In this document: positions 27-23,030 of the stretch, in pieces
Numbering within the stretch: position 1 is the first letter of the stretch
How the letters are laid out: each line of letters starts with the position of its first letter
NCBI GenBank assembly: GCA_016206145.1
Contig: JACQSA010000051.1
Coordinates: 1 to 34,611, forward strand
Direction: 5' to 3'
DNA: 34,611 bases
From: Candidatus Uhrbacteria bacterium
GTDB taxonomy: Bacteria; Patescibacteriota; Patescibacteriia; JACQRZ01
The notes under the pieces: generated by a model
What the model was told of the DNA's origin: nothing
The model's input: only the letters and a program-made list of their open reading frames with translations
The model's database searches: none
Position numbers and translations under genes: made by a program

Positions 27-3000
27 TTAGAAACGATCCTGTCCCCATGCGTTTCTGGCATAAAAACGGCTGTTTTCTTTAAGCCACTCACGACCATCTT
101 TCTTTATCTTGGTAACAATCGCATGTCCTTCCTCTCCCAACTGGTCAGCAAGACTTTGAAAAACGTCTTTAATTTCTAAGGTTGAAAATGGATTTTCAAG
201 ATCAGGGATACGGATATTCATATTCTTCAATTCTACTGCAAAATCTTTCCCTAATCTTTTACTAAACTCAGCAGCCTCTATATTCGCTGTAATACCTGCC
301 ATAATGTTCGCACCATTTGCTTTTCCTCGATCAGCAAGTTTCCCCGCCATATTTCTTATAGCGGCCATGACATGAGTTGCCATATCCGGATTATCACTTC
401 CTTCAGGGTCCAAATATTTGGTTATCATTTTCATGATCGGAGTATCTGGATTTTGGAGTAGGGAATTATGTAGGGTCAATATCATATATGGAGCGACATC
501 GTCATCCTTCATGGCATTTTCAAAAAGCCTTTCATTGAATTCTCTATCCGGACCCTGAAAACCATCTTTTGTGATATTGAAAAGGTCTGGATTGTCAATA
601 TACGCACGGGTCATGCCTGCAGTTTTTCCCATCATCATAAAATCGTGTGTCGCATTGCCATCTTTATCTTTATCCTTACCCTGTTCTCTCATCTCTTTGA
701 TTGATTTAATAGATGCTGATTTCATTGCTGCCTCAATAATGGGATTACTTTTCATATCCATGAGATGTCCAGCAGAAATATTGTTTGCAAGACGGTTAAT
801 CGCCTTTAGTAAATCCGCGCTAATCGCGTCAGGACGTGATGCAATATCCTTGAGTGATATACGCCCTTTTTCGAGTAAATGCACAAGTTGTTCAGGGGTC
901 ATGCCAAATGCTTGGCTCGGATATTTCGACCATACGTCAAAATCAAATGCCTCCAATGCTCCCGCTCTTCCGCCACGTTGGGCAAAAAGCGTACGCGCTC
1001 CATCAATTTCTTCAGTGGTATAAAGCTGACGTTTCATCATTTCTTTTTGCGCCGCCATTTGATCGGTATTGGAAAACCCTTTTACTGCCCCGGCGGCAAT
1101 GGCTTTAACCACCTCGTCTCGCAGGCCGGAAACATGTTTTTGCGCCGATGCAATCGTTTCATTTTGAAGATCATCCATATCTCTCATCACACGCCTTCCG
1201 AATCCATCAATCCCATTTGCCATATCTCCCAAATACGGGAGTAAGAGGCCCGCCCCACCGCCCACAGCAGAAAGTACAGCGGCGCCAGCAAATTGTCCGC
1301 TCCGTAACATCACGTCTGGAGCCAAAGACATTCCACGCGCAATCGCACCTTTAAATTCTAAACTCTGTGCATTTAATTTATACTTATCTGAATCCATATC
1401 AAGTCCCACAGCTTCACTGCGCAGATCAGAGGCAATCTTCTTTTTCAGTGCGGCAAATCCTCCATCTGGATCTTCCTTACGACCATCCAAAAAGTCTGCG
1501 TACCCTCTTTCTTTTATTGCTTGTTTTTTAAATTCGTCAGCTTCCCCCAGCATTTCAGCTTTTGATTTTCCGTATTTCTCTTCAAATTCCTTATCCGTCA
1601 ACTTGGATGTATTCGCTTTATCTTCCAAATCTTTTGCATTTTCTTCAATCCGATCAGCCTTACGCCGTTTTCCGTCGGGGGTCAATATACCATCAACAGA
1701 TTCTATTTTATTGCTTATGCCATCGAGATCATCTTTGAGTGCCTGAAGCTCTGATGCTTTTTTCTTCAGTTCGTTAATATTCCCTCGTAAACTTGCGTCA
1801 TCAGCCTCTTTCGCTTTTTCATCAACTTGCTGGGCTTTTTCATCTCTTTCCCGCTCAAGCTCTGCCCTTCTCGCCAGTAAGGCTGCGGGCGATTCGGCAA
1901 GTTTGGCATCATCCTCAAGCTCTGTCATCTTTTTCTTCATTCCTTCAATGCGTTTCAACCGTTTCCCGCGCTCTTCATCTGATTCATTTTCTGGAAATTC
2001 TCTTTCTGCCTGTTCAATTTCTTCTGCAAGAACAGCCTTCATCCTACGAAAATCATCTGGCTTTGACTCAAGTCGAGCGGCTCTCTCCCTTCTATTTCTT
2101 GCTTCTTGTTCTGTTTCTCCGGATTTGTTTTTCTGATCTTGCGCATCTCCAGCGAGATCGGCAAGTTTCTCTGCCAACGCTCTCTTTGGCTCAGTGTACA
2201 TTTTATTCCACATTTCGCGCGGCTTTTTCATAATATCTCGCGTAGCAACCCACTTTGCTGCCATATCTTTTGCACCGCCCACAGCAGCTGCCGCGACACC
2301 GATAGGCCTCCCCCACCGCACCAAGCTCTCTTTAACTTTCTCTTCTCGCGCCTTCTGGCGCATTTTTGAAAACATATCATACCGCTCCCGCGCCCAACGC
2401 ATCGGCGAAGGGCCTTTCTTACCTGCGGCGTATGCGCGAGCGCCTTCGACTACTCCTCCTGCCATTTTGCCGCCTTCTACGCCAAGCTGTTGTGCAACTA
2501 CCATGGAGCCGAGTAGCATCACGATCCCGAGGAACGTGCCAAGCGTGCTTTGGGGACTGCCAAGCGCAGTGCCGACGCTGCCGGAAAAACCTGAAAGCGC
2601 ATTCGGATCAACAGGAGGTACGGCAGAAATTACCGTGCCTAGTTCAGGGCGCGCATCTGGATTTGATCCGCCGGCCAATTGCAGGGTGGTAAATGAAAGC
2701 CATAGAAAAAACATCATGATAGGCCCCACGATCAAATAATTCACAAACTGATCCCACCATTTTTTCCCAAATCCCTTGTCATCGGGAAGAGCCGAAAGAA
2801 AAAACGCAGCAGGAGACAAGACCACAAGAAACCAAAGCGCGACCACACGCGCAATCAAGATGTAAAGCATGACCACTACCACGACAAGAGCAATGACCAT
2901 GAAAATAAATGCAAGGATAAGGGAGGCAAATACTCCAACCACGTCCACTTTTGCGGGACCCGCGGCTGAGGCATAATTCAAAAACTGGTCAATTCCTAGT

Positions 3001-3584
3001 AACCCCACAAAATTACCTCCTGCGGTATTTTCTACTGCTCCCACAAACGTAAGCATCACTATATTTGAAAAATCAATGGCAAGCCCGGCAATGGTTTTTG
3101 AAAAATTGATAAGAATCGCCGCGCTGATCAATTTTGGCAAAGTTTTTGAATATGTGTATTTCTCATGCTGGAGTATGGTCCCTATTGCGATTGCGAGTAA
3201 AATAAGCACAAAAAACATATTGCATAAATCCCTGATGATTTCCCACCCGCGCGTTACGGGAATCGAATCAATAAATTGCGTGTATTGGGAAACATCCACG
3301 ATCATATTTATCACAACGAGGAAGAGGCCCGTGAGAGCTTTCAAAATCCCTTCCACGATAACAACGATACCTCCAAGAATCTGATCCTGGAACATCTTGA
3401 CAGCAAGAGCTCCTGTGAATAGCGTTAGTGCCCCGCCAATAAGTAGAGGCGCGACGAACGCCTCCCCCTTACTCGCAAACCCAAACACACCCGCAAAAAC
3501 CAACACAAAAACCGCCATGGCACTTGCATAGCGCCAACGCTTTTGTGTGCGGATATAGATTGTGAAGACTGTGATGGGGTTCAT
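27..3584 (-). CDS. TrbL/VirB6-like polytopic membrane protein with long charged coiled-coil C-terminal region
   Basis: 1185-aa ORF; N-terminal ~380 aa with multiple hydrophobic helices (e.g. VVGVFASLILAFIFMVIALVVVVVMLYILIARVVALWFLVVLSPAAFF), then a K/E/R-rich coiled-coil region; resembles TrbL/VirB6-type proteins common in CPR genomes. Confidence 0.75.
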   Translation of the reverse strand: MNPITVFTIYIRTQKRWRYASAMAVFVLVFAGVFGFASKGEAFVAPLLIGGALTLFTGALAVKMFQDQILGGIVVIVEGILKALTGLFLVVINMIVDVSQYTQFIDSIPVTRGWEIIRDLCNMFFVLILLAIAIGTILQHEKYTYSKTLPKLISAAILINFSKTIAGLAIDFSNIVMLTFVGAVENTAGGNFVGLLGIDQFLNYASAAGPAKVDVVGVFASLILAFIFMVIALVVVVVMLYILIARVVALWFLVVLSPAAFFLSALPDDKGFGKKWWDQFVNYLIVGPIMMFFLWLSFTTLQLAGGSNPDARPELGTVISAVPPVDPNALSGFSGSVGTALGSPQSTLGTFLGIVMLLGSMVVAQQLGVEGGKMAGGVVEGARAYAAGKKGPSPMRWARERYDMFSKMRQKAREEKVKESLVRWGRPIGVAAAAVGGAKDMAAKWVATRDIMKKPREMWNKMYTEPKRALAEKLADLAGDAQDQKNKSGETEQEARNRRERAARLESKPDDFRRMKAVLAEEIEQAEREFPENESDEERGKRLKRIEGMKKKMTELEDDAKLAESPAALLARRAELERERDEKAQQVDEKAKEADDASLRGNINELKKKASELQALKDDLDGISNKIESVDGILTPDGKRRKADRIEENAKDLEDKANTSKLTDKEFEEKYGKSKAEMLGEADEFKKQAIKERGYADFLDGRKEDPDGGFAALKKKIASDLRSEAVGLDMDSDKYKLNAQSLEFKGAIARGMSLAPDVMLRSGQFAGAAVLSAVGGGAGLLLPYLGDMANGIDGFGRRVMRDMDDLQNETIASAQKHVSGLRDEVVKAIAAGAVKGFSNTDQMAAQKEMMKRQLYTTEEIDGARTLFAQRGGRAGALEAFDFDVWSKYPSQAFGMTPEQLVHLLEKGRISLKDIASRPDAISADLLKAINRLANNISAGHLMDMKSNPIIEAAMKSASIKSIKEMREQGKDKDKDGNATHDFMMMGKTAGMTRAYIDNPDLFNITKDGFQGPDREFNERLFENAMKDDDVAPYMILTLHNSLLQNPDTPIMKMITKYLDPEGSDNPDMATHVMAAIRNMAGKLADRGKANGANIMAGITANIEAAEFSKRLGKDFAVELKNMNIRIPDLENPFSTLEIKDVFQSLADQLGEEGHAIVTKIKKDGREWLKENSRFYARNAWGQDRF

Positions 3585-3587
3585 TGC
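3531..3587. repeat. Direct repeat copy A (5' end of TrbL-like gene)
   Basis: gcgccaacgcttttgtgtgcggatatagattgtgaagactgtgat (45 nt identical to 4345-4389), extending to 57 nt with 2 mismatches. Confidence 0.95.
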
Positions 3588-3593
3588 GAGGAA

Positions 3594-3599
3594 ATTATA
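3594..3599 (-). promoter_or_regulatory. Extended -10 element (TGGTATAAT) 9 nt upstream of the TrbL-like start codon
   Basis: Minus strand reads TTTATGGTATAATTTCCTCGCAATGAACCCC; consensus TATAAT with TGn extension. Confidence 0.5.
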
Positions 3600-3710
3600 C
3601 CATAAATAAAGGGAGGATACATATCAACAGACGATCACTTGCATACGTTATATTTCTATGGTATTGTATTTGTACGAGTGGCAGGAGTGTCATTCGCCAA
3701 TCAACTGCAG

Positions 3711-3734
3711 AATCCCGCTTATGCGGGATTTTTT
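3711..3734 (+). terminator. Intrinsic terminator-like hairpin, T-tract on the + strand
   Basis: aATCCCGCttatGCGGGATttttt; overlaps the 3' end of the NYN gene, whose TAA lies in the loop. Confidence 0.5.
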
Positions 3735-4333
3735 GCTCTCCTTACATCCATTTTCAATAACTCCTTCCTGAAATCGACAATGTCAAAATATCGTGTTGCA
3801 GCCGGTGGTAATTCTTTTGCGATATGACCTGCCCGAGAAAATATTATGACTATCTTCCCCTGCCCTCTGAGAAACTTTATTAGATATTCAAAATCGCAAT
3901 CTCCCGAAAATAGAATAAAGGTATCATAAGATTGCAAACGAAATACAGCATCAACTGCGATTTCTACATCAAAATTTGCCTTCCTATGCGGCAGTTCTGG
4001 GGTATGATCTGCATAATTCTTAAGAGGTTTTGTATTAAGTCTATAAGTGAGATTACTGAGAAAAGAAAGAAATTTTCTATGACCGACAGTTTGAAAGTCA
4101 GGTGTGTAAAATTTAATTTCTTCAACACTGCCTTCTTTTTGAAAAAACTCTTTAATCTTCTTATAGTCAACTCTGTAACGTAAGTCGCTGGCTGAATTCT
4201 TTCTCAATACATCTGTAATGTCCTTTGGATTAACCCACATATCCTGAACAGATCGTTCAAGGTTAGCCGCATCGATAGCCACAAAAACTCTCCCTTTCAT
4301 AGCACGACGTATTGATTCAATATAATCGTTCAT
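3719..4333 (-). CDS. NYN (LabA/PIN-like) domain protein, putative nuclease
   Basis: Start at ATG AAC GAT TAT (MNDYIESIRR); motifs VAIDAANLERS, ANFDVEIAVDAVFRLQSYDTFILFSGDCDFEYLIKFLRGQGKIVIIF typical of NYN domains, with conserved acidic residues. Confidence 0.8.
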   Translation of the reverse strand: MNDYIESIRRAMKGRVFVAIDAANLERSVQDMWVNPKDITDVLRKNSASDLRYRVDYKKIKEFFQKEGSVEEIKFYTPDFQTVGHRKFLSFLSNLTYRLNTKPLKNYADHTPELPHRKANFDVEIAVDAVFRLQSYDTFILFSGDCDFEYLIKFLRGQGKIVIIFSRAGHIAKELPPAATRYFDIVDFRKELLKMDVRRAKNPA

Positions 4334-4398
4334 ACATATGTCATGCGCCAACGCTTTTGTGTGCGGATATAGATTGTGAAGACTGTGATTGGGGTCAT
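4330..4398 (-). CDS. 22-codon leader ORF derived from a duplicated 5' end of the TrbL-like gene
   Basis: ATGACCCCAATCACAGTC... encodes MTPITVFTIYIRTQKRWRMTYV; its TGA overlaps the NYN ATG as ATGA. Confidence 0.45.
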   Translation of the reverse strand: MTPITVFTIYIRTQKRWRMTYV

Positions 4399-4401
4399 TG
4401 C
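4345..4401. repeat. Direct repeat copy B, upstream of the NYN gene
   Basis: Second copy of the repeat at 3531-3587, 814 bp away; the NYN gene lies between the copies. Confidence 0.95.
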
Positions 4402-4408
4402 AATCAAT

Positions 4409-7400
4409 TTAATTTGAGATCGATGCGGTTTGAGCTTCGTACAAATTATACTTTGTTCGGGCATCTGCTTCTGGCCAGTCTTTTGAAGCGTCCTCGCGAA
4501 GTGGGAACGTAGCAAGATCATACTTATACTGCCAGCTCGAAGGCGTTATTCCCCATTTATCATCGCTATCCTTATACACTGTCCCGCATGTAGCGGCTTT
4601 TGCTTCCCAGTTGTCCATGGTGTAAATGCAAATATGCTTGCCATTCGGTTTTCCATCTCCGTAAATGTGACTGAATTCGAACGGCAGATCATCGGAATTT
4701 GTTGTGGTGCCATTGACCGCAGGGCCCGGCCGCTCATTTTTTCCACTGCCTTCTTTGTTTGAGTTCGTATACTCATATCTTCTTCCATCGCCCCAATCCA
4801 CAATGATCTTACGCAGAGGGAGTTGGTCATTATTTGGCACATCAACCCAAAAACTGATGCGCACCTTTGGATACAAAAGGAAGTCGTGATCAAAATGGAA
4901 TCCTCCTGTATCGCCTTTCGTGTATTTGTCACCGGCCGGCATAGGAATAGCCGGCGAAGTCACTGGCGCGCGCCCCTGCGCTTCGGTGCGAGATGTATCC
5001 CACATGGTTTGGAGTTTGCCAGCGTCAGAACCAACAAATTTCGTACCATCCCATGAAGCTGTTTTTTCATACTTACACTCGTCCGGCCCACCTGAAATGC
5101 AAACACCAAATATTATTGCGGTACACGGCGGGGTATAACACTTCCACTTCCAGTACTCATACGCTTTGGCAAAAACGCTTGTGCGGAGAGTATCGATAGG
5201 CTCGCGAGTAAGAGACGGGTATACTGAAATATCTGTATCTTTATCCGTATGTGGTTTTGAAAAGGATTTCACATTAAAGCCTGGGTTTTCGGTTCCTGGT
5301 ATTAATTTTTCTTTACCTGTTGTATAAGTTTTTGTCTCATTATAGGACCACAAATAATTTTTCTGAGTCGCAGTATTAAATTCAGTATAAAACTCATCGC
5401 GATCCCATAATGCACGTTGAGCCTTTAACACTACCCGCTGTGCAGGATTTACAGAAGTGAGGAAGGACTTACCCCCCAATGTGAGATATGTACCATGCCG
5501 CCCCTGATTGTCAGCATTGGAATCAGATGCAACAGGATTTTTTGTTTGCTCATACAATCCAACATTTTGCCCGTTGGTAGTTATGGGCTTGACAAACGCG
5601 GTACAGTAATTGATAAACCGATTTTGTGCTTGATGATGTACGGTCGTGGTGTTTTTCTTGAAATAAATTTTGGTGCTTACTGCCACCGCCTGATCGCCAC
5701 CGCCTGACGCATCGCAATACAGCCATTTCCATCCTGCCAACCTCTCTATACCGTTAACATTTGCAATCACGGGACCAATTACCACAAAGTTTTTCTCTTC
5801 ATTACATGATTCATTCCAATATGACTTTTTTTGACCTTGACTATTTGTCCACGCTCCCAGATTTTCTGTCGCAACTTGCCAGCACAAAGCTCTTCCGCCT
5901 TGATTATTGTTATAAATACACTTACGGTCATGACCTCCCCAGCCTCCTGCTTTTTCATCGAAATAAAATCCAACATCATTCCTTGGCTCTGGCGTACTAT
6001 CATCCCATCTTTTTCCTGCATAAATCCTATTACTCACCCCTGACTGAACAAGATACGTTTCGTCAGAATAGCCGCGAGGATTATCGACGCCATCTTCACT
6101 CATACCACTATCAATAAGTTGTTTAAATTCAGTACGCGTAGCTCCTTCTAATATATATTCGATCATATAAATGGAGTCCATAGCGAATCCGTAACTTGTG
6201 CCATTAGGAATGCCATCAGAAACTACCTCTCTGGAATTCACTCCAAGTGAAGGAAGATTAACTTCACTACCCGTATATCCTGTTCTAGCGGCAGTGTCGT
6301 CTATTTGATCGCCTCCCCACCCAAGTAGCTGACCAATAAAACTAGCCAAACCTCCGGCTATTCCAAAAACTGCACAGCCTGCACCTCCGCCAGGTATTGC
6401 GCCAACGCCTCCAACCCAAACTGTTGATACTGACCCTACTGTTGTGCCAACCAGGCAGGATGCTCCTGCCGCATTACCAACATTGTTCCAAAAATTGCTA
6501 TTAAATTCCGTCATGACAAGAAGACGGCTTCCCGCTGAAGTAATGTCCGGATTATTTTTTAATCTATCCCTATCTAAATAGCCGTCAGATTTATTCAGAT
6601 TGGAAGAATCACGGGTTTGATAACACTTTATAGAAGCACTGCCAACTGGACAGTCGGAAAGTGGAAGCGATTTTTCATACAACCAATGGTCTCTAGTGTA
6701 TGTGGCGGGTGTACTGTCGGGGTCTGCCATACCGAAATTGCCTGTGGGATCTTCTTCAACAGCAGAGCTCGACGCGATTTCGGTTGGATTTGATTGCTCT
6801 ACGCAAAAAGAAATACCCGTAATGCCACCACTTGCATACGACGACGCTGGCGCCCCTAGATTGGCAGCTGCTGCACTGCTGGCTGTTTGATTTGAAAGAG
6901 TAATGGGGTTCCACAGTAGGCAGGCCTGAGAGTAGCTTCTATAGACACAGGGGCCATCGGAGCCACAATCATCCGGGATATTGCCAGCTTCGCAGTTGCC
7001 AAGCACACTCCCTCCAATTATACGATTCATATTCTTCGCGCACACTTTTCCAGTTCTCTCCTTTCCATATCTGGTCTGCCACTGCGGGTACGGTTCCAAG
7101 CAATACCCGTATACGCCGACGAATTTCTCTGCGGTGCCGCTGATATAATTACACGCGTCATTCCATACGTTTTTATTTTTGCTGTCAACGCGGACTTTTG
7201 GAGAATCCGAACGCGGATACAGCCGGCATGAACTTGCGACTTCTGTAACGCCGGATATATTGATCTTATTCTGCAGTCTTTCATCGGGATCTTTTATAGT
7301 TGGACCAAGACTATCACTCGCAAGCGGTGCATTCGCGCCAGTAAACGATTGTATCCACGGAAGGAAATAACTGTCGCGGCCGGAAGGATTTTTGGTCGTA

Positions 7401-10400
7401 TAGTCGTCTTTAAAGACCATGTTTGGGCGAGCATACCCGGAGAGTCCGGCAAACGAAAGATCGAGCTCGTGGTATTTATCCGGGGTAAGCCGTATTGAGC
7501 CATCTGCATTCCGTATTTGCAGATAGGGTGCTTTAAAATTACCGGCAAGTGATGCGGTCGGAGACGGTTGGCAATTATGACCTGCCGCAAGGTCTTTATT
7601 CCAATAACATTCTACATCGCTCTCGCATAAACCCTTTACCAGAGAACTGCAATATGTAATCAAGTCATCTGATGTCGGGTTTGTAATGCACTCAACTCCT
7701 GAGGAACATGGCGTAAAGCGGGTACAACGTTCTGCGTTATTTTTACACACTCCAAGCGGAATACATTCGCCAACGCATCTTGTGCCGGTGCACTGGCAAT
7801 CACGGTTTTCCGAACACCGACTGCTTATATGTTCTCCCTTACACGTCCCAAGGGCAGGCAACGCAGGAACAATACATCCTCCATTTGCATTTCTCTTTAG
7901 GCAGGGGATGCGTTCAGTGCAAATCTTGCGGTTTGGATCGCCTTGCACGCGGATATCGTTCGCGCAGTCCAAGGAAACTTTACATTCGCGATCGAGTTTG
8001 CCTTTGAGTAAGATATTTGCGTCATTTGCTGTCGCGGGGGCATTTCGAGAATCAGCAATATTCAAAGTAATGCCGCGTTTTGTCTTAAAATAATCATTGT
8101 AGTACGCCGATGAATTATATATCTTTGCCTCTGCGTCAGGATCAGTGTCCTGTAAAAGAATGCATCCGTTTTCTATATTGAGTTCACCTGAACATTCTTT
8201 TTGGGTATCTCTCACGTCGCCCAGATATGTGCGATATACCTTACACGAAGCGCCGCTCACTCCTTTTGTCGGATCAAGCCTTCCATAATCGCTCCTCAAG
8301 GTGCCATTGCCGGGATCTTGTACAGGGCAATGTGGATTACCATCTCCACACTCAATACATTCGGGATCTTTGTATTTTCGACACCCGACCGCGTTTGAAG
8401 GACACTGCTTGAAATATTTCGCAGGCCCCTGATCGTTCCAATAGGTAATTGTCGGGGCAGAAATTTCGAGTTTTGATTGAGTGGTATTATACGTTTCAAA
8501 CGCGTGGGAGTATGCGGCCGGACCTCCGCCTTTGCCAGTAGTACTGTCTACACTATCACAGCTTATCAAGGCATCACATCTTCCTGTATATACGGCACTC
8601 TCAAGACCACTACAATCATCGTCCGACTGGCACGCGTAAGAAGGATAGTACAGTTCGTTTTCTTGATTTTTTTCATCATCCAAAAGATCGCCTGATTTCT
8701 TGCGGCATGCTTTATAAAACCAGCCTTCTTTGGGTTCTGTTGCGCCCTCTCCTTTAAATACATTGCCTTTTGTCCAGTAGCAAAGATTTTTTCCGGGAGT
8801 TTTGAAATACCGTTTTGCGCTTTCAGTATTGTACGCTTTGCATCCTTGCTCTTCTTGTTTACACACACCTGCCTTATACCCTTCCGAGATTACTGTGGGT
8901 GCTACATCTGATAGTTTCGCAAGGTTTTGGGTGATCTGATCCGGAGTGATCTTATAAAACACAGTCTGCCACTCCTCTTTGTATCCATCGTTTGCAGTCG
9001 TTGAGCTTGCGACTCCGTTAGAGACTGTTACTGTTGTCACTGTGCCTGAAGTATCGGCTTTCCTGTGTTCACGCGTTTTTACGGGTGCTCCGTATGCAGT
9101 GCAATTTGCCTCTTCGGACCTGCATTGCACATTGGGTTTGTCTACAAGATATTTCGGCGATTCATAGCTAACATATACACCAAACCGCTTCCCGCTAACA
9201 GTGGAAATGTATTCATCAAAACATTTGCCTTGATCAGTCAATGTTTCATCCGGTAAAGCTTGTCTTGCATCTGCGGTGGAAGTGTTTTTATCTGTCGAGC
9301 ACCGCAGGATATTTGTCGGTTGACTGTCGAGGGTCTCATTTGGAAAGAATGACCATCTCCATTCCTTAAATTCTCGACAACCCACAAAAGGAAGGGGGCA
9401 CACATTTGTGAAACCGGAAAATGCTAACGGCGTTTCAATCTCAGGAGTACTATAGAGTCGGCAAGAAGTCTGATACGTGCCGGATCCGTTCATCTCGCAC
9501 GCTTCTGGCCGCGCACTTTCTGTCTTTGTGGAAGTGTCTATCGCGTATATGGTTGCACCATCGGATTCTTTGATAAAAATAGTGTCTAAAAATGCCTGAG
9601 AAAGAGTCGTGCCTGTGGGAGGCGTAATGCGGATCGCCACGCTAGTGGTGGTTGCATTTTCTATGGTGAAATTGAAATACTGCCAGCCTGAGGTTGTAAA
9701 GGTCGCACTCGCAAGGGTATTTGTAGGAGTAATGCCTGCCGTATCCTTGCCGATAATGGCAAGGGTTGATGTCCCGACTGCTTTTGCATTCAAGGTAAGC
9801 GTATAACTCTTGAGAGAGGAAAGAACAATTTGTTTTTCTGCTTCAAGTGATCCGGCACTTGATGTGATGCGCAGGCTCCTCCCTCCTACGGTTTCCGCTT
9901 CCCGGGAAGTGTCTACGCTTGTATCCGGCCCCCATCCGGATCGGAATGGTTCTTTCTCAAATGTATCCCGTATGATCACAGAGTAATTGCCGGCAGTCGT
10001 GGAAGAATATGCGCGACATCCCACTGCAGACGCAGAGCACTGCGCGCTTAATGATCTGGAAATAAACCTTCCGGCAGCGTTATCTGCAGCACGACGATAT
10101 TCACTGCAGTCATCGGTTTGATACACAAGCTTGTCTATGTAACGATACGAGACTGCTCCTGCTGCGCTGATAAACTCGCGGCACGTGAGAGGTTGAGTAG
10201 GGGTATTAAATTGGTCAGAAAAAATCTTTGCGTCGCATGTGCAAGCGCTCCCTACCGCACAGGCAGGGTCACCGCTCGCATCTGCCTTCAGATAAAACGC
10301 AACAGGTTGCCTGCCGCCCTGTTCAGACCCGTAGTAACTATAAAACACAGTGCGGTTTTCCGGCGTATCTTTACTGACAAATTCGCACGCAGAAGTTTTT

Positions 10401-13400
10401 GTAAAATACGCATGCGCTTCTCCGCCTTTTGTTTCAAGGTCGATATTGGTAAACTCCTCACATCCCGCTTCTTGGGCGTTGCAACGATTCACCCTGTCTT
10501 CTTTGAAAAATGCAAGAGAATTCGCAGAGGTTTTATCAAAAAAGCTTGGTTGGAGGAAGTAGGCGCGTATGCCGACACACGATTCAGCCAAGCACGCCTG
10601 AGGGCTCAACGCGGGAATATCAGGATCCTCAGAATCAAGCGCACTATACAATTGGCATCCAACATTTTCTTCTTTGCAATGCAGCGCATAGCGCTTACAC
10701 TCGCTTCTCTCAAACGCTCCTGTTTCGTCGCACTTCAGGTACGCAGGCGCGACTTTGAGGTTTGCGCCATTGCTCATGGTGCGACATCCGTCAGCAGACT
10801 CTTCGCAACGCGGAGCATTGTGAGTGAGATACACGCGATTTGCAGGAGTATCAACCCATGGACTGGAGACAACTTTTGTTTTTTCTTTGTTTGTGTTATC
10901 AATGACTTTTTGGCAAAGCGCGAGTGTGGCAGACCTCGCGTCCTTGAACGCTAGATCCGCTGTCGGAGCGGCCTTGACATTGTGAAGATTATTATCAAGC
11001 ACCGTGCCTAATTTATTTTCCATCAGCACTCTCTTGCCGTCTTTTATGGGATTGCCTTCTTTATCACGCTGAAAGTCTATCACGCACGTTTCGTACTGGC
11101 GCTTTTCTTGTGAAAGCCATGTACATCCAGCGTTTTCTTCTTTGCAAAAATTGTTCTTTTTTTCATCCTCGCTCCCATATACTTCTTTTCCTATCGTATC
11201 TTTGAGCAAAGCAAAATTTTCTCCTTTCCCGTATGGCGTGATTTCAGTAAACGCATCGCAGGATGCAAATTGGTTGGGACATACAGTGCCCTGCAAACCG
11301 AATTTTTTCCATTCTTCAATGCAATATCCAAATCCAATGCTTTTTTCTTCGCATTTGCCGTCTGCGCTGTCGCTCAGACACGATGTTTCATCAACGCACG
11401 CTTCGGGCCGAGGAGATGGCCTGATTTGTAAATCTGGGGGACATGTACTCACACCATCCCCGTTTGTATCAGTAATACAGGCAGGGTCAGGATCCCGCTC
11501 TTTTGGATCTGCACTTGGATCTTGGGTGCTTTCCAGCGCAGTCGGACCGTATCCTTTGAGTTCGCACCGTACGGGCGGAAGTTTAAGGACCCAGCTCGGA
11601 TCGATTAAGCGAAAAAACACGCTGTCTTTATTGTTAAAATTATTTACCAAATCTTGCAGAGTACAGTCTTTTTGTCCGCATGGTCCCGGGTTATCGCGGA
11701 TATAGAGAGCGGCAAGTTCCCATGCCACAGGCAATACACGATATTTCCGCAATATCACCATGGAGCGGTACGGATAGTCGTTTTGATAGTCCCGAGGCTC
11801 TTCGGATGGCCTGCCCGCAGATGTATGCTTAAATCCAAACCGCCCTTCGGGATTCAGACCGCTACTGCCACCGGAAGTTTTGTATTCTTCCATTGCTTCT
11901 GCCACTGTCATACGGTTTCGTATGGCTTCGGCAAATGCGGATCCGATAGTGCACGCATTCGGATGTATGAAACAATCCTGGATTTGCAATTCGGAAAGCA
12001 CGTTTTGTATTTGTCCTCCGGAAGTTTTTACTTTGACAAGTTGCGCGATGCGCTGTACTGTCGGGCTTTGCGAACCTCCATACGATGGAGCCGCGGCAGG
12101 ATTATAAAGTTGAGCTGATTGGACACTAGAAGACGTAAAATCTCCTCCGGCGGACGCCACGCCTACCCGATTTGCATCTGCCACCAAACGGCGCACTCCT
12201 TTAAACCCAAGCTCAACTGATTTTCCGACAAATGTTTCAACAAAATCCGCAATAATGTCTACTGTGTCGACCAAGAGCTTGCCGGTGAGAGGATCTTTTT
12301 TACTGATTTCTCCCAACACATTGTCTGAGACAGCTTTTCGGATTCCTCCGGGGGACAAGATATTTCCTGCCCAGTCAGTAACCGGCTTCAGACCGCTTCC
12401 TGCAATCATATTTTCCCACCTCTCCTTTTCCTTGGCTTGCAGTTCATCTATTTGATCCTGCATAATACTGCTCTGAAGACCAAATGTGATACCGACATCG
12501 CTTTTGTATGGATCGAGCGCGTCGGCAAGAAGCTGCCAACCATTCTTGCCGGTCACTGTATTAGAAATAGCGGCGCCTGTATCTTGGATAAAGGTTGACC
12601 AATTTTGTTTTAATGTTTGATATTCACAAATTGGTTTTTCCGGTTCACTAATAGATGAGCTAAGCCCCAATCCGATCCTGAACATAACACCGAGTTTTGG
12701 AGCGCATACCCCCTGTAAAAAACTATATGCTGCCGAAGAAAGCGCGCCGGCTGCGTTTTTCTGAAATTTTTGCATGCGGGAAAACTCTGCCGCGTCATAG
12801 GTATCAACTTGGGTTTGAACGTTTTTTCTTTTTTCCGCAAAATCACCTGCTATCTGCGTAAGGCGCTTTAAGTCAGCTTTGCTTGCGTCGAGACCTTTTA
12901 ATTGCAATTTTGCTGTATCGCATTCGTCGGCATTAAAATGACTGTCTCCGCAAAACTCCTCAATATCAGCTTTTAATTCTCCTTCTTGTTCTTCAATAAA
13001 CTTTTTCTTTGACTGCTCATTATCTGAATATGAACCAGTCAAATCCTCTAACTCTCCAAGGTCCTTATGTAATCCTGCTCTATCTTTTTCGTACTTCACA
13101 TCAAACCCCAGCACCATGCCTTCAAGCGCACCGCCAACAGCATTCTGGGCCGCATCAATCGCATAAAATGTCCATGTGAGCGGATCGAATGCCGGCAATT
13201 TTCCTTTTTCTCCTGTTGCCCATTCTCCAAATAATGCGTTTGCACTGTTTTCTGAAAGTTTATGGGATAAAAATTTTAAGCCGCGATAACCGGCATTTTC
13301 AAGACCAAACCAAATAATATTTGGGACATACTCCAAAAGAGTTTTTGGAATATCAACAGTCGTGGCTGTGGGAACGACTGCATGCGCCGGTTTTGCAGTC

Positions 13401-13474
13401 GAAAAAAACAACACAGGCGCAAAGAGCATTATGATCAAAAAAGTGAAAAGGGTTTTCTTTGAGCTAGATTTCAT
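4409..13474 (-). CDS. Giant (3021 aa) secreted Cys-rich multidomain surface protein
   Basis: N-terminal signal peptide MKSSSKKTLFTFLIIMLFAPVLFFSTAKPAHA; repeated C-x5-G-C motifs; jelly-roll/CBM-like module; Gly-rich hydrophobic segment; C-terminal PKD-like VDWGDG...FSHIYGDG. Confidence 0.8.
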   Translation of the reverse strand: MKSSSKKTLFTFLIIMLFAPVLFFSTAKPAHAVVPTATTVDIPKTLLEYVPNIIWFGLENAGYRGLKFLSHKLSENSANALFGEWATGEKGKLPAFDPLTWTFYAIDAAQNAVGGALEGMVLGFDVKYEKDRAGLHKDLGELEDLTGSYSDNEQSKKKFIEEQEGELKADIEEFCGDSHFNADECDTAKLQLKGLDASKADLKRLTQIAGDFAEKRKNVQTQVDTYDAAEFSRMQKFQKNAAGALSSAAYSFLQGVCAPKLGVMFRIGLGLSSSISEPEKPICEYQTLKQNWSTFIQDTGAAISNTVTGKNGWQLLADALDPYKSDVGITFGLQSSIMQDQIDELQAKEKERWENMIAGSGLKPVTDWAGNILSPGGIRKAVSDNVLGEISKKDPLTGKLLVDTVDIIADFVETFVGKSVELGFKGVRRLVADANRVGVASAGGDFTSSSVQSAQLYNPAAAPSYGGSQSPTVQRIAQLVKVKTSGGQIQNVLSELQIQDCFIHPNACTIGSAFAEAIRNRMTVAEAMEEYKTSGGSSGLNPEGRFGFKHTSAGRPSEEPRDYQNDYPYRSMVILRKYRVLPVAWELAALYIRDNPGPCGQKDCTLQDLVNNFNNKDSVFFRLIDPSWVLKLPPVRCELKGYGPTALESTQDPSADPKERDPDPACITDTNGDGVSTCPPDLQIRPSPRPEACVDETSCLSDSADGKCEEKSIGFGYCIEEWKKFGLQGTVCPNQFASCDAFTEITPYGKGENFALLKDTIGKEVYGSEDEKKNNFCKEENAGCTWLSQEKRQYETCVIDFQRDKEGNPIKDGKRVLMENKLGTVLDNNLHNVKAAPTADLAFKDARSATLALCQKVIDNTNKEKTKVVSSPWVDTPANRVYLTHNAPRCEESADGCRTMSNGANLKVAPAYLKCDETGAFERSECKRYALHCKEENVGCQLYSALDSEDPDIPALSPQACLAESCVGIRAYFLQPSFFDKTSANSLAFFKEDRVNRCNAQEAGCEEFTNIDLETKGGEAHAYFTKTSACEFVSKDTPENRTVFYSYYGSEQGGRQPVAFYLKADASGDPACAVGSACTCDAKIFSDQFNTPTQPLTCREFISAAGAVSYRYIDKLVYQTDDCSEYRRAADNAAGRFISRSLSAQCSASAVGCRAYSSTTAGNYSVIIRDTFEKEPFRSGWGPDTSVDTSREAETVGGRSLRITSSAGSLEAEKQIVLSSLKSYTLTLNAKAVGTSTLAIIGKDTAGITPTNTLASATFTTSGWQYFNFTIENATTTSVAIRITPPTGTTLSQAFLDTIFIKESDGATIYAIDTSTKTESARPEACEMNGSGTYQTSCRLYSTPEIETPLAFSGFTNVCPLPFVGCREFKEWRWSFFPNETLDSQPTNILRCSTDKNTSTADARQALPDETLTDQGKCFDEYISTVSGKRFGVYVSYESPKYLVDKPNVQCRSEEANCTAYGAPVKTREHRKADTSGTVTTVTVSNGVASSTTANDGYKEEWQTVFYKITPDQITQNLAKLSDVAPTVISEGYKAGVCKQEEQGCKAYNTESAKRYFKTPGKNLCYWTKGNVFKGEGATEPKEGWFYKACRKKSGDLLDDEKNQENELYYPSYACQSDDDCSGLESAVYTGRCDALISCDSVDSTTGKGGGPAAYSHAFETYNTTQSKLEISAPTITYWNDQGPAKYFKQCPSNAVGCRKYKDPECIECGDGNPHCPVQDPGNGTLRSDYGRLDPTKGVSGASCKVYRTYLGDVRDTQKECSGELNIENGCILLQDTDPDAEAKIYNSSAYYNDYFKTKRGITLNIADSRNAPATANDANILLKGKLDRECKVSLDCANDIRVQGDPNRKICTERIPCLKRNANGGCIVPALPALGTCKGEHISSRCSENRDCQCTGTRCVGECIPLGVCKNNAERCTRFTPCSSGVECITNPTSDDLITYCSSLVKGLCESDVECYWNKDLAAGHNCQPSPTASLAGNFKAPYLQIRNADGSIRLTPDKYHELDLSFAGLSGYARPNMVFKDDYTTKNPSGRDSYFLPWIQSFTGANAPLASDSLGPTIKDPDERLQNKINISGVTEVASSCRLYPRSDSPKVRVDSKNKNVWNDACNYISGTAEKFVGVYGYCLEPYPQWQTRYGKERTGKVCAKNMNRIIGGSVLGNCEAGNIPDDCGSDGPCVYRSYSQACLLWNPITLSNQTASSAAAANLGAPASSYASGGITGISFCVEQSNPTEIASSSAVEEDPTGNFGMADPDSTPATYTRDHWLYEKSLPLSDCPVGSASIKCYQTRDSSNLNKSDGYLDRDRLKNNPDITSAGSRLLVMTEFNSNFWNNVGNAAGASCLVGTTVGSVSTVWVGGVGAIPGGGAGCAVFGIAGGLASFIGQLLGWGGDQIDDTAARTGYTGSEVNLPSLGVNSREVVSDGIPNGTSYGFAMDSIYMIEYILEGATRTEFKQLIDSGMSEDGVDNPRGYSDETYLVQSGVSNRIYAGKRWDDSTPEPRNDVGFYFDEKAGGWGGHDRKCIYNNNQGGRALCWQVATENLGAWTNSQGQKKSYWNESCNEEKNFVVIGPVIANVNGIERLAGWKWLYCDASGGGDQAVAVSTKIYFKKNTTTVHHQAQNRFINYCTAFVKPITTNGQNVGLYEQTKNPVASDSNADNQGRHGTYLTLGGKSFLTSVNPAQRVVLKAQRALWDRDEFYTEFNTATQKNYLWSYNETKTYTTGKEKLIPGTENPGFNVKSFSKPHTDKDTDISVYPSLTREPIDTLRTSVFAKAYEYWKWKCYTPPCTAIIFGVCISGGPDECKYEKTASWDGTKFVGSDAGKLQTMWDTSRTEAQGRAPVTSPAIPMPAGDKYTKGDTGGFHFDHDFLLYPKVRISFWVDVPNNDQLPLRKIIVDWGDGRRYEYTNSNKEGSGKNERPGPAVNGTTTNSDDLPFEFSHIYGDGKPNGKHICIYTMDNWEAKAATCGTVYKDSDDKWGITPSSWQYKYDLATFPLREDASKDWPEADARTKYNLYEAQTASISN

Positions 13475-13527: not shown

Positions 13528-13670
13528 GTCATCCCGAGCGTCAGGTCCGATGGCCATCGGACCGAAGTCGAGGGATCTACGTCTTTCTTAACAGCCACAT
13601 AGATTCCTCCACTCCCTTCTAGCCTGCCCTGAGCGAACAACACCGTGAGCCGAACGGGGTCGGAATGACA
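13528..13670. repeat. Intergenic repeat family member R1 (GTCATCCCGAG...GGTCGGAATGAC)
   Basis: Shares gtcatcccgag, cgagggatctacgtcttt, cttctagcctgccct..gcgaacaacaccgt.agccgaac.gggtcggaatgac with R3; contains the perfect 20-bp palindrome GGTCCGATGGCCATCGGACC. Confidence 0.85.
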
Positions 13671-16432: not shown

Positions 16433-16485
16433 CGAAGATATGAATTACTTTGAATTACGGAAACTGCCAATAATGCCCCCGTGTT

Positions 16486-16754
16486 GTCATCCCGAGCCCC
16501 CGCACCAGAGCAAAACTCGGTGCGGGGTAGACTCCGCGAGGGATCTACGTCTTTCTTAGAGAGCCGCATAGATTTCCGGCAAAAGCCAGACAGACTGTCC
16601 AAAAACTGCGGGAACTCATCCGTATGTCATTCCCGCGAAAGCGGGAATCCAGTAGTTATAAGCTTTCTTTGCTGACTGGATCCCGCATCAAGTGCGGGAT
16701 GACAGTTTTTGGACAGTCTGCCTCCTCCCATGCTTTTCGGTCGGTCGGAATGAC
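16486..16754. repeat. Intergenic repeat family member R2 (with nested insertion)
   Basis: gtcatcccgagccc.cgcaccagagcaaa.ctcggtgcggggtagactccgcgagggatctacgtctt shared with R3; ends cggtcggaatgac. Confidence 0.85.
16591..16720. repeat. Nested palindromic element with 18-bp perfect inverted repeats
   Basis: CAGACTGTCCAAAAACTG (16591-16608) and its exact reverse complement CAGTTTTTGGACAGTCTG (16703-16720); interior gtcattcccgcgaaagcgggaatcc and ggatcccgcatcaagtgcgggatgac. Confidence 0.9.
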
Positions 16755-20700: not shown

Positions 20701-20720
20701 TGGCTTCTATCGTTTAAAAT

Positions 20721-20847
20721 GTCATCCCGAGCCCACGCACCAGAGCAAAGCTCGGTGCGGGGTAGACTCCGCGAGGGATCTACGTCTTTTCCCTTCTAGC
20801 CTGCCCTACAGCGAACAACACCGTAAGCCGAACAGGGTCGGAATGAC
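20721..20847. repeat. Intergenic repeat family member R3
   Basis: 5' half matches R2, 3' half matches R1 (cccttctagcctgccctacagcgaacaacaccgtaagccgaacagggtcggaatgac). Confidence 0.85.
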
Positions 20848-22807: not shown

Positions 22808-22869
22808 TGGTGCCGCGAGAGGGAGTCGAACCCTCACACCCTTGCGGATACATGGCCCTGAACCATGCG
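22808..22869 (-). pseudogene. 5'-truncated tRNA-Leu copy (anticodon arm, variable arm, T arm, 3' acceptor strand with CCA)
   Basis: 22819-22869 matches 50/51 nt of the intact tRNA-Leu; ends ...CCCTCTCGCGGCACCA; no GCCGCGA-type 5' acceptor strand or D arm upstream. Confidence 0.8.
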
Positions 22870-22885
22870 CGCCCCGTACAAATAA

Positions 22886-22969
22886 TGGGCGAGGAGGGAG
22901 TCGAACCCTCACATCCTTGCGGATACATGGCCCTGAACCATGCGTGTCTGCCAGTTTCACCACTCGCCC
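22886..22969 (-). tRNA. tRNA-Leu(CAG)
   Basis: GGGCGAGTGGTGAAACTGGCAGACACGCATGGTTCAGGGCCATGTATCCGCAAGGATGTGAGGGTTCGACTCCCTCCTCGCCCA; anticodon loop TTCAGGG, long variable arm, discriminator A, CCA not encoded. Confidence 0.95.
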
Positions 22970-23030
22970 ATTAACTGTACGTGGTACACCTGCCAACCCC
23001 TCGTACGGCATACTGCTACTTTTTTCCGGC

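Follow-up and report, generated by a model that had tools for sequence, protein, structure and literature searches.

A putative homing-like cassette of a NYN nuclease gene and a small RNA gene at duplicated gene ends in Patescibacteria

In a 34,611-nt stretch of DNA from Candidatus Uhrbacteria bacterium (contig JACQSA010000051.1; the whole stretch analysed is called the window), a gene for a NYN nuclease lies between two copies of the start of a neighbouring TrbL-like gene, and that gene is intact. How can a gene be inserted at the start of another and leave it whole? We show here a cassette, its flanking duplications, a regenerated target gene, empty sites in relatives, a small RNA gene and relatives of the nuclease within inteins. 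From these we infer, with a probability of about 0.62, that the 757-nt segment between the copies is a homing-endonuclease-like mobile cassette that carries the terminus of its target gene. Cleavage, homing and the role of the RNA remain inferred.

Layout of the locus and its empty sites

The flanking direct repeat is 57 nt long (3531–3587 and 4345–4401), with two mismatches; along the minus strand, identity is complete over the last 45 nt, and both copies encode M(N/T)PITVFTIYIRTQKRWR. On the minus strand the order is a giant gene, 10 nt, copy B, the NYN gene, approximately 130 nt of noncoding sequence, copy A, and the TrbL-like gene. The giant gene (4409–13474, minus strand) encodes 3021 amino acids. 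Copy B (4345–4401, minus strand) is the displaced start of the TrbL-like gene, its ATG (4398) lying 10 nt past the giant-gene stop (4411–4409). A leader open reading frame of 22 codons (MTPITVFTIYIRTQKRWRMTYV and a stop; 4330–4398, minus strand) is built from copy B, and its TGA overlaps the ATG of the NYN gene as ATGA (4333–4330). This overlap may indicate that the leader and the NYN gene are translationally coupled, a suggestion made from sequence alone.

Copy A (3531–3587, minus strand) holds the present start of the TrbL-like gene, comprising 3 nt upstream and 18 codons, MNPITVFTIYIRTQKRWR. Its ATG (3584) opens an intact frame of 1185 amino acids. The target gene (27–3584, minus strand) encodes a TrbL/VirB6-like membrane protein that is conserved in 86 of 95 relatives, and copy A is likely to be its functional, regenerated start. 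An extended -10 promoter, TGGTATAAT (3594–3602, minus strand), ends 9 nt before this ATG. If active, which is inferred, it could yield a leaderless or near-leaderless TrbL mRNA. Both the leader frame and this promoter were read directly from the sequence.

The segment between the copies (3588–4344) contains no transposase or recombinase gene; the NYN gene and the RNA gene are its sole content. Inserts at most other NYN loci with coding-end repeats measure 558–830 nt. An initial annotation of the window had described the repeat, the position of copy B behind the giant gene, the NYN frame between the copies, the intact gene opened by copy A and the lack of a visible transposase or recombinase, and all of these claims held. 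To them we add the leader frame, a likely true start for the NYN gene (ATG 4333), the nuclease itself as a candidate mobility enzyme, and a convergent small RNA gene that the annotation had missed.

Empty sites exist in the two closest relatives, neither of which has the NYN gene at this site. In one (G010), the giant gene immediately precedes the TrbL-like gene, with 63 nt between them; in the other (G006), only a tRNA-like stretch separates the two. No NYN gene of the window type was found at E <= 1e-35 in the 10 other genomes of the family. Relatives of the window NYN with 54–65% identity are scattered over Doudna-, Magasanik-, Yanofsky-, Uhr- and Kuenenbacteria and others, and the spread of NYN is patchy across phyla, including Omnitrophota and Chloroflexota. 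This scatter, together with the absence from family genomes, shows that the NYN gene was acquired. A search of viral contigs returned no relative of it.

The window also contains other repeats. A 51-nt direct repeat (98% identity) lies at 22819–22944, with its second copy inside a tRNA-Leu gene (22885–22970), and a partial tRNA copy lies 75 nt away. A dispersed intergenic repeat of 70 nt (97% identity), containing GAGGGATCTACGTC, occurs at 16485–16554 and 20720–20789, with further copies at 13569 and 13632.

The nuclease and its convergent RNA

The NYN gene (3719–4333, minus strand; stop at 3719) encodes 204 amino acids. Its product matches the Pfam NYN family (PF01936, 1.2e-24), its AlphaFold2 model (pLDDT 93) has the NYN fold, and an alignment of NYN relatives identifies D21, N24, D122, D145 and D147 as conserved. 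The protein is thus a member of the NYN domain family by both fold and conserved acidic residues. The best PDB matches of the model are 2qip (VPA0982) and the NYN domain of MARF1 (5yaa). These share its fold but differ in being known or presumed RNases, or of unknown function, and in not being mobile. Characterised NYN domains, such as that of MARF1, are RNases.

Five complete inteins (near 4001 in L086, L087, L095, L097 and L101) have a related NYN domain in their endonuclease position. The splicing domain (Intein_splicing, PF14890) was confirmed in all three that were tested (L086, L087 and L097). Four of the five intein NYNs branch among the cassette NYNs, beside one that is fused to hisS (L088; SH-aLRT 99). 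Homing endonucleases usually exchange between inteins and free-standing genes. Because NYN domains fill the homing-endonuclease position of inteins, the window protein may be a mobility endonuclease, although DNA cleavage is inferred; we regard the intein-borne NYNs as the strongest functional clue to such a role. The window cassette differs from an intein in that no splicing domain flanks its NYN, which is a stand-alone frame, and in that its target is regenerated by duplication and not by protein splicing. All five inteins sit within long, repeat-rich surface proteins.

Convergent with the NYN gene is a gene for a small structured RNA of approximately 65 nt (3670–3736, plus strand), comprising a hairpin, a conserved AUCAACUGCAG linker, and a terminator hairpin with a T run. 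Its promoter (3639–3667, plus strand), likewise read directly, is TTGCAT - 17 nt - TATTGT; most relatives have TTGACA-16/18-TATAnT at the homologous position. Across loci the RNA measures roughly 50–75 nt and lies opposite and just past the 3' end of the NYN gene. An antisense promoter with at most one mismatch is present at 43 of 75 NYN loci, against 4 of 75 on the sense strand, 12 of 322 control ORFs and 0.3% of shuffles. An antisense intrinsic terminator is present at 47 of 75 loci, compared with 3 of 75 in the sense direction.

The RNA is also conserved in structure. The window RNA folds with z = -4.7, and 13 homologues fold into two hairpins in which 16 of 22 pairs covary by double changes; a second RNA sub-family folds likewise. 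A covariance model (R1) scores the window RNA, one of its training sequences, at 67.4 bits (E 5.9e-12 over 268 kb of loci), and it locates the RNA beside two held-out NYN genes (L069 and L113). R1 RNAs occur in 7 of 380 genomes of the phylum, at least five of which also have a window-type NYN match. At the gathering threshold, Rfam detected only tRNA and DUF3800 RNAs in 28 related loci (8 + 20), with no family for the NYN RNA; within the window, scanned in the permissive mode, the only matches were sub-threshold RsmY matches arising from the terminator. The presence of a dedicated RNA partner of NYN is well supported, while its role, as cofactor or brake, is inferred. We also considered the RNA as a guide to the target, and this is disfavoured, with near-identical RNAs accompanying different targets.

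Duplicated gene ends at other NYN loci

We examined 76 distinct NYN loci, 70 of which could be tested for flanking repeats. Flanking direct repeats scoring >= 19 were found at 21 of these 70 loci and at 23 of 322 control ORFs (p about 1e-6); the controls were ordinary ORFs of the same contigs, among them a few NYN ORFs that had escaped exclusion. Since flanking repeats are enriched around the NYN family, the repeat in the window is not a chance occurrence. Some of the 21 are dispersed repeats and not gene ends, and several high-scoring ones, judged by eye to be dispersed or of low value, were set aside (L160, L074, L096, L113, L150 and L094). About a dozen NYN loci remain that copy the start or the end of a neighbouring gene. 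The initial annotation had proposed that the insertion brings along or duplicates part of its target and so restores the host gene, and had looked to empty sites in sister genomes and to other NYN genes flanked by repeats of a neighbouring gene. Both were found, the latter at gene ends as well as starts, and the core of the proposal is supported.

Gene starts are duplicated in the window (trbL) and at L078, L080 (trkH), L079 (gatC), L089 and L088 (both hisS), and L098. The NYN of the gatC and hisS cases is fused in frame to the borrowed gene start. At L078, a perfect 89-nt duplication runs from the end of one gene into the start of its neighbour, around an insert of approximately 690 nt. Gene ends are duplicated at L117 (atpH, 85 nt), L119 (123 nt), L044 (60 nt) and L045 (an unnamed gene). 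We take the L119 target to be phosphoenolpyruvate synthase-like and that of L044 to be nucleoside phosphorylase-like, both read by eye with no database result. For the atpH case there is again an empty site, the gene being without insertion in six congeners. In a sister of the L119 genome (G075), the same gene is followed by a short tail copy (VQSRPITTL and a stop) and no NYN, which might be an insertion scar.

Coding-end repeats range from 21 to 123 nt; thus, the constant target-site duplication length of transposons and insertion sequences is not met. No flanking repeat is seen at 49 of the 70 loci, including nearly all window-type relatives, from which we infer that the duplication is either frequently erased or not obligatory. 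Among the approximately 17 closest window-type relatives, the window alone has a clear gene-start duplication, and one other (L063) has a possible decayed one. Relatives with NYN but without repeats had been named as grounds for refutation; this applies in part to the window-type sub-family, and not to the wider family. Separately, an insertion hot spot at the end of one gene (L045:1-1900, L144:600-2900, and L143) contains several tail copies together with NYN and further small ORFs, and could represent serial insertions.

Where the two copies can be compared, they have diverged mostly by silent changes. Over seven loci, 47 of 61 differing codons are synonymous (neutral mean 14.2; a value this high arose in none of 4000 simulations). 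Where a gene end was copied, the downstream, second copy is headless and hardly selectable in place, so it probably diverged in a working gene elsewhere, before the copies met. We infer for the family as a whole, on these seven loci, that one copy of each pair is likely derived from another genome. The window pair, with just two differences, has too few for this test. Which copy is native could not be decided from sister genomes; the votes are weak and opposed, favouring B in L119 (15 vs 9 sites) and A in L117 (2 vs 1). A polarity of identity between copies, with one end identical, was suggested by the window and L117, and fails across cases.

A parallel design is found around DUF3800 genes, which have been described as encoding an RNase H fold with associated ncRNAs (PMC10910872). 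Like the NYN cassette, they pair a nuclease-like gene with a convergent structured small RNA at its 3' end (Rfam RF02964 and RF02968); these RNAs reportedly come from a 2017 candidate-RNA survey. In the same class of bacteria, 16 of 29 DUF3800 genes have the same convergent RNA promoter, and Rfam DUF3800-V or -IX RNAs lie at the convergent position in 6 of the 12 DUF3800 loci scanned. As at NYN loci, gene starts are duplicated, with two genomes (L201 and L202) copying the start of the same target gene (..PSPKHERVPK..). The systems differ in their protein folds, which are unrelated, and in their RNA families, with Rfam matches at DUF3800 loci and none at NYN loci. It is possible that one cassette design is common to these unrelated nucleases. 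Two further DUF3800 loci (L186 and L205) also sit at duplicated gene starts, and many DUF3800 genes have convergent RNAs. At L177:1389-2310, a solo window-type RNA without NYN adjoins a frameshifted DUF3800-like gene, which is accompanied by a convergent RNA-like unit of its own and by a spare gene tail.

A homing-like mechanism and its rivals

We propose that the NYN protein would cut element-free alleles near a gene end. The break would then be repaired from an element-bearing allele, copying in the cassette with the adjoining target terminus; the synonymous-biased divergence of the copies, the flanking duplications and the empty sites are the basis for this step. The target is seen to stay intact, since one copy of its terminus continues into the gene body while the other is displaced. 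In the window, copy A with the extended -10 box starts TrbL, and copy B is a leader frame for NYN. At gene starts, the NYN gene borrows the start of its target, as the sequences show, as a leader in the window and as an in-frame fusion at hisS and gatC. The small RNA is predicted to be a dedicated partner of NYN, either an RNA cofactor or a brake on its expression or activity.

The closest known analogues are the mORFs of fungal mitochondria, which carry the carboxy-terminus of a gene (Allomyces atp6; Glomus atp6, atp9, cox2 and nad3; PMC3630166). There too a nuclease ORF has inserted at the end of a gene, accompanied by a foreign copy of the same end, the native end is displaced, the gene is regenerated, and the copies diverge by silent changes. 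The NYN loci meet two defining features of this class: a nuclease ORF is inserted at a gene whose counterpart in relatives lacks it, and a copy of the target gene end is carried, with the target regenerated. The fungal elements differ in using LAGLIDADG or GIY-YIG endonucleases, in being mitochondrial, and in comprising carboxy-terminal cases only, whereas the cassettes described here are bacterial, combine a NYN nuclease with a convergent small RNA, and occur at gene starts and ends. Homing endonucleases are also abundant in the same bacterial group, as LAGLIDADG elements in CPR rRNA genes (PMC11270868), although these are intron-borne, located in rRNA genes and based on a different nuclease. 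None of the papers searched links NYN to homing endonucleases, inteins or Patescibacteria in the sense of such a cassette.

Several points weigh against homing. Cleavage and homing are only inferred, for a domain whose characterised members act on RNA; most NYN loci lack a visible duplication; the spread of repeat lengths is unusual for a single cutting mechanism; and homology-directed homing alone needs no displaced tail copy in the gene-end cases. The main rival, which we consider unlikely, is a toxin-antitoxin system, with NYN as the RNase toxin and the convergent RNA as a type III-like or antisense antitoxin; the pair would spread as an addiction module, would have been inserted by unrelated recombination, and the repeats would be incidental. 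In its favour are the usual RNase activity of NYN domains and the fold match to MARF1, the dedicated covarying RNA that accompanies each NYN sub-family, and the solo RNA at L177, since antitoxins can persist alone. Of type III-like features, the window has a nuclease with an adjacent RNA; that RNA is convergent, no repeat array is seen, and there are no data on toxicity or neutralisation. Against this rival, R1 found no companion RNA at the five intein NYNs (a model specific, however, to RNAs of the window type), and NYNs without a visible companion nonetheless occupy the intein endonuclease position. It also leaves the duplicated gene starts and ends and the synonymous divergence of copies unexplained.

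It is very unlikely that an unseen transposase or integrase moves the segment in trans as a non-autonomous element, leaving long target-site duplications, with NYN and the RNA as cargo. The perfect duplication of non-element sequence at L078 fits such a target-site duplication. However, duplication length varies, no common terminal motif stood out by eye at the loci inspected, coding-end repeats begin or finish near gene termini, and the copies at L119, L045 and L117 diverged under purifying selection, which is unexpected for duplication in place. Local rearrangement (a partial tandem duplication) or an assembly artefact at the 57-bp repeat can be all but excluded. The exact arrangement is known from only one draft genome, without reads, but other, independent genomes and assemblies show the same architecture at different genes, and nearly all inserts have the same two parts.

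The homing-like reading thus remains preferred, and these cassettes are likely to represent an apparently undescribed group of mobile elements, situated at gene starts and ends in many related tiny bacteria, although their mobility is inferred. A bolder and more tentative reading is that NYN and DUF3800 nucleases function as ribonucleoproteins, each together with its convergent RNA, and so constitute undescribed RNA-assisted homing elements that copy host gene ends. Each cassette comes with a predicted target, and cleavage is therefore directly testable. If the homing-like reading is true, an RNase-type fold has been co-opted to serve as a homing endonuclease, and the known DUF3800 RNAs and the NYN RNAs would be linked as components of selfish cassettes. 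It would also account for gene starts that are fused or duplicated and could therefore be misannotated, and it would mean that bacteria with small genomes have a common, overlooked route by which genes are invaded without being broken.
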